64,000 bases of DNA from NCBI RefSeq assembly GCF_024643285.1, contig NZ_JAMSLW010000003.1, forward strand, positions 186,001-250,000, given 5' to 3'. Under the pieces are notes generated by a model. That model was not told the origin of the DNA, searched no databases, and worked only from the letters and a program-made list of their open reading frames with translations. The translations under genes were made by a program, and so were the position numbers. Positions 46,290 through 48,823 of the stretch are shown in pieces (within the stretch, counting starts at the first letter, position 1; every line of letters starts with the position of its first letter). Source of the DNA: Parapedobacter lycopersici. Its GTDB lineage: Bacteria > Bacteroidota > Bacteroidia > Sphingobacteriales > Sphingobacteriaceae.

Positions 46290-47168
46290 CTATTTGCGGA
46301 CGGGACTCACTTTTGTCCTGAGCTGTGCGATGTCCTTTAAAATCTGCGTTGTATTGCTGTGGATTTCGATCTCCTCGCCAACAGGCCCGTCAAATGCCGG
46401 ATTGTTTTCCTGTGTTATTGCCATTTCCGCCGTGATGTGGAAGGCATCCAGGATAATGGTTGGATAGAAGCATTTATTCGTGGTGGGTATCCGCTGGTTC
46501 AGCCAGTTCATGGAAGCGTAACGTAACGAGAACACCACGAAAGCGATGGCGCCGGCCGGCAGTTGCCTACGGCTGATCCAGTTAATTTCCGCCTGCTTAT
46601 CCTGGTTAGCGAACGGAAAGCTGGCATGATCAATTAACCACATGTATCCTACCTTTTCCCGAAAGTGAAATGCGACGATGGCGATGGTAAACTCCAGGTC
46701 CATCCGCGGGCTGTCCGTTGGATAAGCAATGTCTTTCAGGATGTTGAACGTCGGGAGCGAAAACCGGAACTCCCCATCCGGCATACGCTCAACGAAGGGC
46801 TTTACGGAAACCAGCCGTTCAAATGGCGCGTCCGTATTGAACGGAAACCCGACGAGGGGCTGGAGGTCCGCATCGTGCAGATCGCGCTCCCCGATCTCCT
46901 TCCCGGATGCCCGTATACAGGCCGCTACTGCGGCATTTAACCGCAATGACATTTTGCTGTCGCATTCGTCGTAGAAGGGGCGCATAACCTCCCGGAGTGC
47001 CCGTGCCTGGGTACTTGCCAGCCCAAATTCCAGTGCATTTAATTTCGTAGCCAGGGTTTGCTTTACCCGGCCCGGCATTACCTGCATGATCTGTTTATCT
47101 CCGGCTGTCCGGTATACGGTGTTATTCAGCTTGCCATGGATCTTGCCTTTTCTGTCTTGTATAGCCAT
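46290..47168 (-). CDS. conserved Bacteroidota protein, function unknown
   Basis: A 292-residue cytoplasmic protein without signal peptide or membrane segment. The N-terminal 50 residues (GKIHGKLNNTVYRTAGDKQIMQ, KQTLATKLNALEFGLASTQAR as two blocks) look like the start of a family of uncharacterised Bacteroidota proteins, loosely similar to DUF6266-type proteins. The C-terminal half is rich in aromatic residues and beta strands. No catalytic motif was found. It stands alone between gyrB and a 480-base noncoding stretch containing tandem repeats. Function unknown. Confidence 0.6.
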   Translation of the reverse strand: MAIQDRKGKIHGKLNNTVYRTAGDKQIMQVMPGRVKQTLATKLNALEFGLASTQARALREVMRPFYDECDSKMSLRLNAAVAACIRASGKEIGERDLHDADLQPLVGFPFNTDAPFERLVSVKPFVERMPDGEFRFSLPTFNILKDIAYPTDSPRMDLEFTIAIVAFHFREKVGYMWLIDHASFPFANQDKQAEINWISRRQLPAGAIAFVVFSLRYASMNWLNQRIPTTNKCFYPTIILDAFHITAEMAITQENNPAFDGPVGEEIEIHSNTTQILKDIAQLRTKVSPVRK

Positions 47169-47650
47169 AATGAAATACTATTGTGTAATATGATTAGGTT
47201 TTGCTATTTTGGTTTATCCTCTACGCATGCCAACATCCCACCGTACGGCCCTGCCGGGCTTGTATCCCCCACCACAGTGTCTTGTCACCTGCTTCGGGGT
47301 CAATCAGTCGTCCGGCTATCGTGCATCCGGCATGAGTCCAGGTATTTATCGATGAAAACTGGACTCACCCTGGACTCACTATGGACTCACCCTGGACTCA
47401 CTCCGAAGAAGGTGCGGGCAGCATATCCACCCGGTCCCGTACCGGTATGCTTTTGCCAGGTCAAATCAATCAGCAGAAATAGGTTACGTTTAGTTGCTGA
47501 ACCAAAGGTAATGGTTTACATCCTTAATCCCAAATCGGCTGCGTTTCAATGAGATGCAAATCGTGCTGGCATATGACTCATGGAGGGGCTGACCGGTTAT
47601 GTTGTTTAAAATAGTATATTGCAGTTTGATAAACCTTTTTTGCACTAAAC
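47169..47650. other. 482-base noncoding region with tandem repeats
   Basis: Between the orphan protein and the sialidase-like gene no credible gene is seen: the only long plus-strand frame covers the start of the opposite gene and has no protein-like composition. The region holds a cluster of TGGACTCAC repeats (separate entry), the promoter of the orphan gene at its left end, and probably the promoter of the sialidase-like gene near 47600-47625 (TATATTGC at about 47615 resembles a -7 element). Confidence 0.6.
47333..47403. repeat. 11-bp tandem repeat (TGGACTCAC) with one inverted copy
   Basis: Four head-to-tail copies at 47360, 47371, 47382 and 47393: TGGACTCAC followed by CC, TA, CC and TC, so effectively two copies of a 22-bp unit. 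A single inverted copy, TGAGTCCA, lies at 47333-47340. The function is unknown; it could be a protein-binding array or the remains of a mobile element end. Confidence 0.85.
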
Positions 47651-48823
47651 ATGTCAAAAATGAATAGGAAGGATAAAAACGATCTCTTTATCATGGGGCT
47701 GTTTATGGCGGCCGTTTTCTCATCGTGTTCAGGTACCCCATCGGACAAGACAGATCCGCCAAACGATATCACCGGACGGTACCATCTTCCCGCGCTGGTG
47801 GATTCAACTAATAGCGCTTACCTGCGGGGTGAGCTGATTTATTCGCTGGACAATAGGCCTGCTCCACAAAGTCATGCTTCGACCATCGTGGAAACACCGG
47901 ACGGTATGGTCGCCGCTTTTTTTGCCGGTACCCATGAAGGCAATAATGATGTGGGCATCTGGATTTCGAGATTGGTGGACGGAAAATGGACAAGGGCTCA
48001 GGAAGCCGCTAACGGCATCCAAAGCGACACACTCCGGTATCCCTGCTGGAATCCGGTGTTGTTTCAACCCGAAGGCGGAGACCTGATGTTATTTTATAAG
48101 ATTGGTCCCGGACCGCAAACCTGGTGGGGCATGGTAATGACTTCGTCGGATAACGGACGATCGTGGTCCGAACCGCGGAAACTGGGGGAAGACCCGAAGA
48201 TCGGATCATTGCTGGGGCCGATAAAAAATAAACCGATACAGCTGGATGATGGGACGATTATCAGTCCAACAAGTATCGAATATCCGAAAGGAGACGGGGC
48301 GGACCAGGACTGGCGGGTTTATTTTGAGATCAGCAAAGACCTGGGACGTACCTGGGAAGTGGTAGGGCCGATTAATGATGGTGTTGAATTTGATGCCATT
48401 CAGCCCAGTATACTCACGTATCCCGGCGGCAGGCTTCAGGTGATCTGCCGTACACGGCAGGGGGTGCTGGCAGAAAGCTGGTCGGACGATCAGGGTCGCA
48501 CGTGGAGTGCGATGACCGCCATGGACCTGCCTAATCCGAATTCAGGGACGGATGCGGTGACATTGCGTGACGGTCGGCAGCTGCTGGTATACAACCACTC
48601 CACGAAAGAGGGAGAAGAACCTAAAGACCGGAACATCCTCAACGTGGCCGTGTCGGCGGATGGAAAGGACTGGACACCGGTAATGACCCTTGAAAATGAA
48701 CCCGTCGAAGATGGCTATGCTTATCCGGCAGTTATACAGGCATCCGATGGGTACGTACACATTACCTATACATACAACAGAAGGTCAATCAAGCATGTTG
48801 TACTTGATCCTTCGGGCATTTAA
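47651..48823 (+). CDS. sialidase-like BNR/Asp-box lipoprotein
   Basis: A 390-residue exported lipoprotein (lipobox AAVFSSC, Cys at about residue 26). The rest is a six-bladed propeller of the sialidase/BNR-2 type with Asp boxes SDNGRSW, SKDLGRTW, SDDQGRTW and SADGKDW. A FRIP-like arginine motif is not obvious, so activity on sialic acid is uncertain; related proteins act on other acidic or neutral glycans. It is followed by a structured intergenic region and an esterase on the same strand. Confidence 0.8.
   Translation: MSKMNRKDKNDLFIMGLFMAAVFSSCSGTPSDKTDPPNDITGRYHLPALVDSTNSAYLRGELIYSLDNRPAPQSHASTIVETPDGMVAAFFAGTHEGNNDVGIWISRLVDGKWTRAQEAANGIQSDTLRYPCWNPVLFQPEGGDLMLFYKIGPGPQTWWGMVMTSSDNGRSWSEPRKLGEDPKIGSLLGPIKNKPIQLDDGTIISPTSIEYPKGDGADQDWRVYFEISKDLGRTWEVVGPINDGVEFDAIQPSILTYPGGRLQVICRTRQGVLAESWSDDQGRTWSAMTAMDLPNPNSGTDAVTLRDGRQLLVYNHSTKEGEEPKDRNILNVAVSADGKDWTPVMTLENEPVEDGYAYPAVIQASDGYVHITYTYNRRSIKHVVLDPSGI

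Follow-up and report, generated by a model that had tools for sequence, protein, structure and literature searches.

Linkage to a gene and dispersal through the genome point to an unrecognised two-part repeat system behind a short tandem array in the 64,000-nucleotide stretch of the Parapedobacter lycopersici genome analyzed here (the window). We give a probability of roughly one half to the reading that the array is one copy of a dispersed, noncoding, hairpin-like element and that the protein partner of such a system would recognise the 11-bp units of the element and enable it to be copied. The elements are dispersed, follow a common layout, are linked to a gene, consist of different units beside different homologs of that gene and, at one site, are missing from the relatives.

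The element in the window and its copies

The window contains exactly four occurrences of the unit TGGACTCAC, at positions 47360, 47371, 47382 and 47393, always on the plus strand and with a spacing of 11 bp, where 0.27 occurrences are expected and none of 100 shuffles reaches four. The array also ranks first in the window by tandem-repeat score (86 with a 22-bp unit and 72 with an 11-bp unit; the next array scores 64). An inverted unit, TGAGTCCAG, is located at 47333-47341 and, together with the base preceding it, agrees with the inverse of TGGACTCAC at eight of nine bases. The array of four 11-bp units with one inverted copy that the initial annotation had described is therefore real, and the 482-base noncoding region in which it was placed corresponds to the gap at 47169-47650 between two flanking reading frames, a 292-aa gene read leftward (46290-47168) and a BNR-repeat gene read rightward (47651-48823). 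The ends originally given, 47333-47403, match the units and fall short of the element, which extends from 47286 to 47414 as judged by its outer inverted repeats, CACCTGCTTCGG and CCGAAGAAGGTG, complementary at 11 of 12 bases as read. The features are as follows:

47286-47414, no strand: whole quasi-palindromic element, 129 bp, defined by its outer inverted repeats, in a layout common to the copies of this genome
47286-47297, plus: left outer inverted repeat CACCTGCTTCGG with its TTCG mark (15 of 25 own copies carry TTCG in their left outer zone; chance expectation 11%)
47298-47329, minus: degenerate left arm with remnants of inverted 11-bp units, from arm pairing over 25 copies
47333-47341, minus: innermost inverted unit TGAGTCCAG, the inverted copy of the initial annotation
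47342-47359, no strand: A/T-rich centre, the loop of a possible hairpin; the pairing offset is nearly constant across copies
47360-47402, plus: right arm of four direct 11-bp units, TGGACTCAC-NN, from exact-unit count and tandem-repeat score
47403-47414, minus: right outer inverted repeat CCGAAGAAGGTG with its CGAA mark (20 of 25 own copies carry CGAA in their right outer zone; chance expectation 18%)
46290-47168, minus: candidate partner gene, 292 aa, of an unannotated family, transcribed away from the element; homologs adjoin arrays elsewhere

By eye, no target-site duplication is apparent at the window copy, and a search of the window for tRNA and tmRNA genes found none.

A genome-wide search for clusters of the unit, as proposed in the initial annotation, revealed that the array is dispersed and not unique: the double unit yielded 75 matches with up to three mismatches in the 3.62-Mb genome and a single match in the reversed-pattern control. 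Together with the shuffles (0 of 100) this rules out an array arisen by chance. The 75 matches were grouped into 26 places, one of which (L025, C1:944274) was left out because it lies inside a reading frame and is devoid of the shared layout, so that about 25 own copies remain, each a quasi-palindrome of roughly 130 bp. When aligned on the first direct unit, the 25 copies follow one plan that reads, from left to right, TTCG, degenerate inverted 11-bp units, an A/T-rich centre of nearly constant length, direct units (mostly three to five per copy) and CGAA. Of the 25 own copies, 14 lie in divergent gaps; among the other gaps of 150 bp or more, taken over the loci of all groups, 32 of 104 are divergent. 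Apart from the partner family, no recurrent neighbour was found beside the own copies, where homologous flanking frames form no more than small clusters attributable to chance. The flanking reading frames matched 90 Pfam families (48 of 95 frames), and the 25 families listed comprise neither transposases nor Cas or integrase-type families indicative of CRISPR or integrons.

The two arms of the element correspond to one another. Over the 25 own copies, 67.1% of the cells are paired between left and right arm, compared with 29.7-41.2% when the arms are slid by one to three bases, and the covariation score of the arms was reached by none of 500 shuffles. Pairs changed on both sides are not clearly in excess, 33 of 500 shuffles being equally high. 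Arms within one copy match better than swapped arms (p 0.0018 for all columns, 0.014 for the spacers alone), the pairing offset is 19 or 20 in 22 of 25 own copies and in 71 of 79 copies from other genomes, and the hairpins are predicted to be stable.

In a genome collection covering 84,980 species, three exact units in register were present in 94 stretches, and the 80 that are listed all originate from Bacteroidota, namely from Myroides, Mesonia, Flavobacterium, Pedobacter, Parapedobacter, Sphingobacterium and Olivibacter. The arrays of the other genera follow much the same plan as the own copies. The stretch common to the copies amounts to about 450 bp in Myroides N17-2 and about 200 bp in P. 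insulae. In the Myroides N17-2 stretch (loci among L042-L119), inward TAnnTTTG-like motifs are located near both ends; TAnnTTTG is a promoter motif of Bacteroidota. In three Myroides loci (L081, L114, L120), TTGTCTCGTCCT is found just past TGGACTCA arrays and is perhaps the end of an insertion sequence (IS) that prefers these arrays.

The initial annotation had also suggested a comparison of copy numbers. A covariance model detected about 25 R1 elements in the own genome versus zero to seven in eight congeners (two to seven in six of them, none in the other two), all of these counts being lower bounds (150 candidates scored per genome; a variant array in G001 was missed). The gap between ubiE and dnaB comprises 761 bases including an element in the own genome and 368-508 bases in the seven congeners that keep this gene pair, none of which (7 of 7) has such an array there by eye; the eighth, G008, does not have ubiE at this place. 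The element thus combines presence or absence at one site with outer inverted repeats, as is typical of MITEs. The proposal that the array may mark an old insertion site has been borne out in part, as the array belongs to a dispersed element of which one own copy is absent from the same site in all seven comparable relatives.

The linked gene family and its units

Homologs of the window gene (48-57% identity) reside beside the element in five other Parapedobacter genomes, and more distant ones (about 21-30% identity) adjoin TGGACTCA arrays in Olivibacter, Pedobacter, Sphingobacterium, Flavobacterium paronense, Myroides NP-2 and a genome from another genus of the Sphingobacteriaceae (locus L041). 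The array consequently does have a recurrent neighbour, the lack of which would have spoken against the initial annotation: it is the gene at 46290-47168 on the minus strand. The gene family is encoded by 16 of the 18 array-bearing genomes searched, while two gave no gene match; because six of these genomes were already known to encode the family, the fair count is 10 of 12, including one (G435) with a weak match containing stops. An earlier, different model had found the family in 33 of 395 genomes sampled from the phylum across a wider range of taxa. When 30 of 42 matches were inspected, 11 of the 18 array-bearing genomes proved to have a TGAGTCC-type array upstream of a family gene, among them Myroides N17-2, P. 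insulae, P. steynii, P. caeni and Olivibacter; three Mesonia genomes have arrays, but none beside a family gene among the inspected matches. The congeners G001 and G007 possess homologs without an R1 element, although a variant array is present at the gene in G001. Relative to the element, the gene is next to the degenerate arm in the window and next to the direct arm in the own loci L019 and L138. In six of eight congeners a homolog is encoded within about 45 kb of gyrB, as expected for a resident gene. G008 contains a second gyrB-like match (G008:C138:10355-12310, 84% identical), possibly a contamination or a duplicate. Both dispersal in intergenic space and adjacency to a resident gene, two traits of REP/RAYT systems, were found.

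The relation between gene and array extends to homologs with other units. An 11-bp period is significant upstream of all 16 family genes with GAGTCC units, where it is partly built in because this set was defined by repeated GAGTCC, and upstream of 32 of 60 others; downstream, it is significant in 1 of 16 and 0 of 60 cases, respectively. Other upstream periods between 6 and 21 reach at most 7 of 60 genes, and period 22, the double, reaches 16 of 60. Some of the 60 genes are preceded by variants of the GAGTCC-type unit and others by quite different units, while 28 of these homologs without GAGTCC units have no significant 11-bp array. Period 19 is significant upstream of 7 of the 60 genes; a 19-bp periodic stretch precedes the homolog in L172, which has no significant 11-bp array. 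The own copies and those of related genera retain the spacing of about one helical turn pointed out in the initial annotation, as do, with other units, the stretches upstream of many partner-gene homologs. This phasing agrees with sites on one face of the DNA and would fit protein binding as a candidate role.

If different units stand beside different homologs, these units are predicted to be dispersed as well. This was tried with two units, each in its own genome, and held in both cases. In P. insulae, TACTTGA-NNNC, which is the unit of a different family gene, had 24 matches and none in the control; they form four array loci, one of which adjoins the gene, plus two single matches. In G023, a single-contig genome of 3.93 Mb that entered the analysis via its protein and in which the search for TGGACTCA remained empty, the unit TGTAAGTG-NNN gave 131 matches versus 8 in the control. 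Of the 37 loci fetched from G023, 33 have a loop of 8 in their best fold, and outer TTC and GAA marks occur in the G023 elements, too. With gene calls taken as mechanical reading frames, 35 of the 37 loci lie between long frames, one at an edge and one within a frame; the 35 intergenic loci are distributed over 21 co-directional, 9 convergent and 5 divergent gaps. G023 does not reproduce the excess of divergent gaps seen in the own genome, and placement at promoters only was rejected. On the basis of the examples and the two dispersal predictions, we tentatively propose, as something close to an open call, that unit and protein co-diverge and that a phylum-wide class may exist in which members of an undescribed protein family without a known catalytic motif each have 11-bp hairpin arrays of their own, gene and array diverging together and several pairs occurring per genome.

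No known family was found for the 292-aa window protein, and in a profile search with 54 family members each Pfam, NCBIfam, PADLOC or PHROG family was matched by at most one member, and weakly. AlphaFold2 (pLDDT 93.5) predicts short strands and two helices, followed by a beta-rich part with weak Ig-like matches. With Foldseek, neither the whole protein nor its 113 N-terminal residues had a match reaching E 0.001, and the best VIA-align scores (Z 6.7 for Brr2 over 115 residues at 3.3 A, then 5.1) are within the range of common arrangements. The net charge averages +6.3 over the first 62 residues and -2.4 over the rest. No histidine or tyrosine column is conserved in 75% of the 54 aligned homologs, none of the 54 members matched Y1_Tnp in the Pfam search at E 0.1, and the conserved residues make up no set known from a transposase or recombinase. 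Judging by sequence, the partner protein appears to be devoid of the HUH and tyrosine signature of the Y1 transposases to which RAYT belongs.

Two family members had no match in 50,697 phage records, and one of 72,556 plasmid records matched one family member. On plasmid p1 of Marivirga sp. BKB1-2 (L260), a family gene that is 47% identical to the homolog in L171 is absent from the plasmid's gene table and is followed by a DUF5675 gene. In the wider family (L169-L218) a conserved gene for about 140 aa, presumably the DUF5675 gene that is annotated at this place on the Marivirga plasmid, is often located 3' of the family gene, as is a small hydrophobic holin-like gene; the clusters of either gene comprise 19 loci among the 47 used. 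In four loci a small divergent gene reading ..IYPKDIQ.ITGRS.. is present upstream of the family gene.

Alternative explanations

The strongest rival, which we nevertheless consider unlikely, holds that MITE- or REP-like repeats are moved in trans by an ordinary enzyme, either a Bacteroidetes TnpA-REP of subclass 2.6 or an IS transposase, and that the gene is merely a favoured or historical neighbour. Outer inverted repeats and differences in copy number are indeed MITE-like, TnpA-REP of subclass 2.6 are described in the available text of PMC6006769 as having atypical flanking hairpins with copies elsewhere in the genome, and Mesonia has arrays beside which no family gene was seen. A pattern scan of individual loci detected a TnpA-REP-like motif in 1 of 248 loci (P. 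insulae, about 3.8 kb from the array) and a looser IS200-like pattern in 23 of 248, but the former was found in none of 25 own, 27 congener and 36 G023 array loci. Movement in trans is further opposed by the recurrence of the linked family with units of its own and by the lack of transposases among the listed Pfam families of flanking frames. Alternatively, the arrays may be operator sites of an autoregulated DNA-binding protein, the dispersed copies representing a regulon or chromosome-organising sites. Helical phasing, the position upstream of the gene and the many divergent gaps in the own genome (14 of 25) would suit such a role, which is nonetheless improbable: of the 37 loci in G023 only 5 are in divergent gaps while 9 are in convergent gaps, the genes next to the copies are unrelated, for 16 of 25 own copies no flanking gene recurs at any of the 27 fetched congener element loci, and the arms are matched to one another, which separate operators do not need.

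An RNA identity of the element, be it a structured RNA gene or a processed motif, has a distinctly low probability. The predicted hairpins are stable, G-T mismatches exceed A-C mismatches by 185 to 81 in the G023 elements (L282, L296 and L297 omitted), and the minus strand has a slightly lower folding energy in 52 of 79 copies from other genomes (p 0.018). The own copies, however, do not differ in energy between the strands, and on the plus strand G-T is not preferred over A-C (106 to 89 in own copies, 234 to 306 in other genomes). Drift from C to T may explain the excess in G023, every orientation relative to neighbour genes occurs, and no Rfam family was matched at gathering score in 18 loci including that of the window copy (L017); elsewhere in the region the sole match was ArcZ, well below threshold with 23.5 of 66 bits. 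A strand-specific RNA fold was set aside because the wobble bias is inconsistent. Slippage can give rise to short tandem repeats, but a chance minisatellite without wider meaning is refuted by dispersal, by occurrence in other genera and by gene linkage, and its probability is negligible.

Relation to known systems and implications

As a two-part system, the arrangement would consist of a chromosomally resident gene from an undescribed Bacteroidota family (here 46290-47168), encoding a protein with a basic N-terminal and a probably beta-rich, Ig-like C-terminal part, and of a population of quasi-palindromic elements built of 11-bp units, the sequence of which would vary with the gene subfamily. 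The protein would recognise the units in double-stranded form or as a hairpin, extruded or single-stranded, and, acting directly or together with a host enzyme or another enzyme, would allow the element to be copied to new intergenic sites at a low rate. The gene itself would stay put while the elements spread.

Phased direct repeats about one helical turn apart serve as protein sites in ParR/parC-type and iteron arrays. Unlike these, the present arrays are quasi-palindromic, exist in many chromosomal copies and are located away from a plasmid partition or replication locus. A closer parallel is provided by REP/REPIN sequences with TnpA-REP (RAYT), the 'REPtron', for which the available text of two papers describes dispersed intergenic palindromes with a vertically kept resident gene per repeat family, several repeat families with their own genes per genome, and repeats adjoining the gene (PMC6006769, PMC8049555). 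Dispersed palindromes, one gene per repeat family, several families per genome and repeats beside the gene are likewise encountered here, as far as these descriptions go. In contrast to the REPtron, the partner protein does not exhibit an HUH/tyrosine signature, and the element is about 130 bp long and contains an 11-bp array with several units per arm, whereas REP is a short hairpin. As the signature of an HUH transposase is missing, the system would work like a REPtron rather than be one. According to the available text, subclass 2.6 TnpA-REP are not associated with a GT[AG]G tetranucleotide at the foot of the hairpin (PMC6006769). The BrickBuilt MITE of Porphyromonas gingivalis, with a 23-nt unit, ends resembling the IS5 family, a reportedly limited host range and 19 copies in one strain, is similar in that it is intergenic, belongs to Bacteroidota and has tandem repeats between flanks with small inverted ends; it differs by its 23-nt as opposed to 11-bp units and by having no linked gene in the available part of its description (PMC4596501). 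Among the papers listed by searches of the open literature, none deals with the arrays or the partner gene, although an earlier description may exist in print; the available text of PMC3733652 contains nothing on either.

If the protein governs the arrays, it would represent a second, apparently unrelated solution to the role played by REP and RAYT, and it would become possible to test why a resident gene and a population of small repeats are retained side by side in bacteria. As several gene-array pairs with different units exist, the specificity of the protein for its DNA might be read from comparative data. The system would, if true, account for dispersed repeats in Pedobacter, Parapedobacter, Myroides and their relatives, and it would suggest a role for an unnamed protein family present in 33 of the 395 sampled Bacteroidota genomes.
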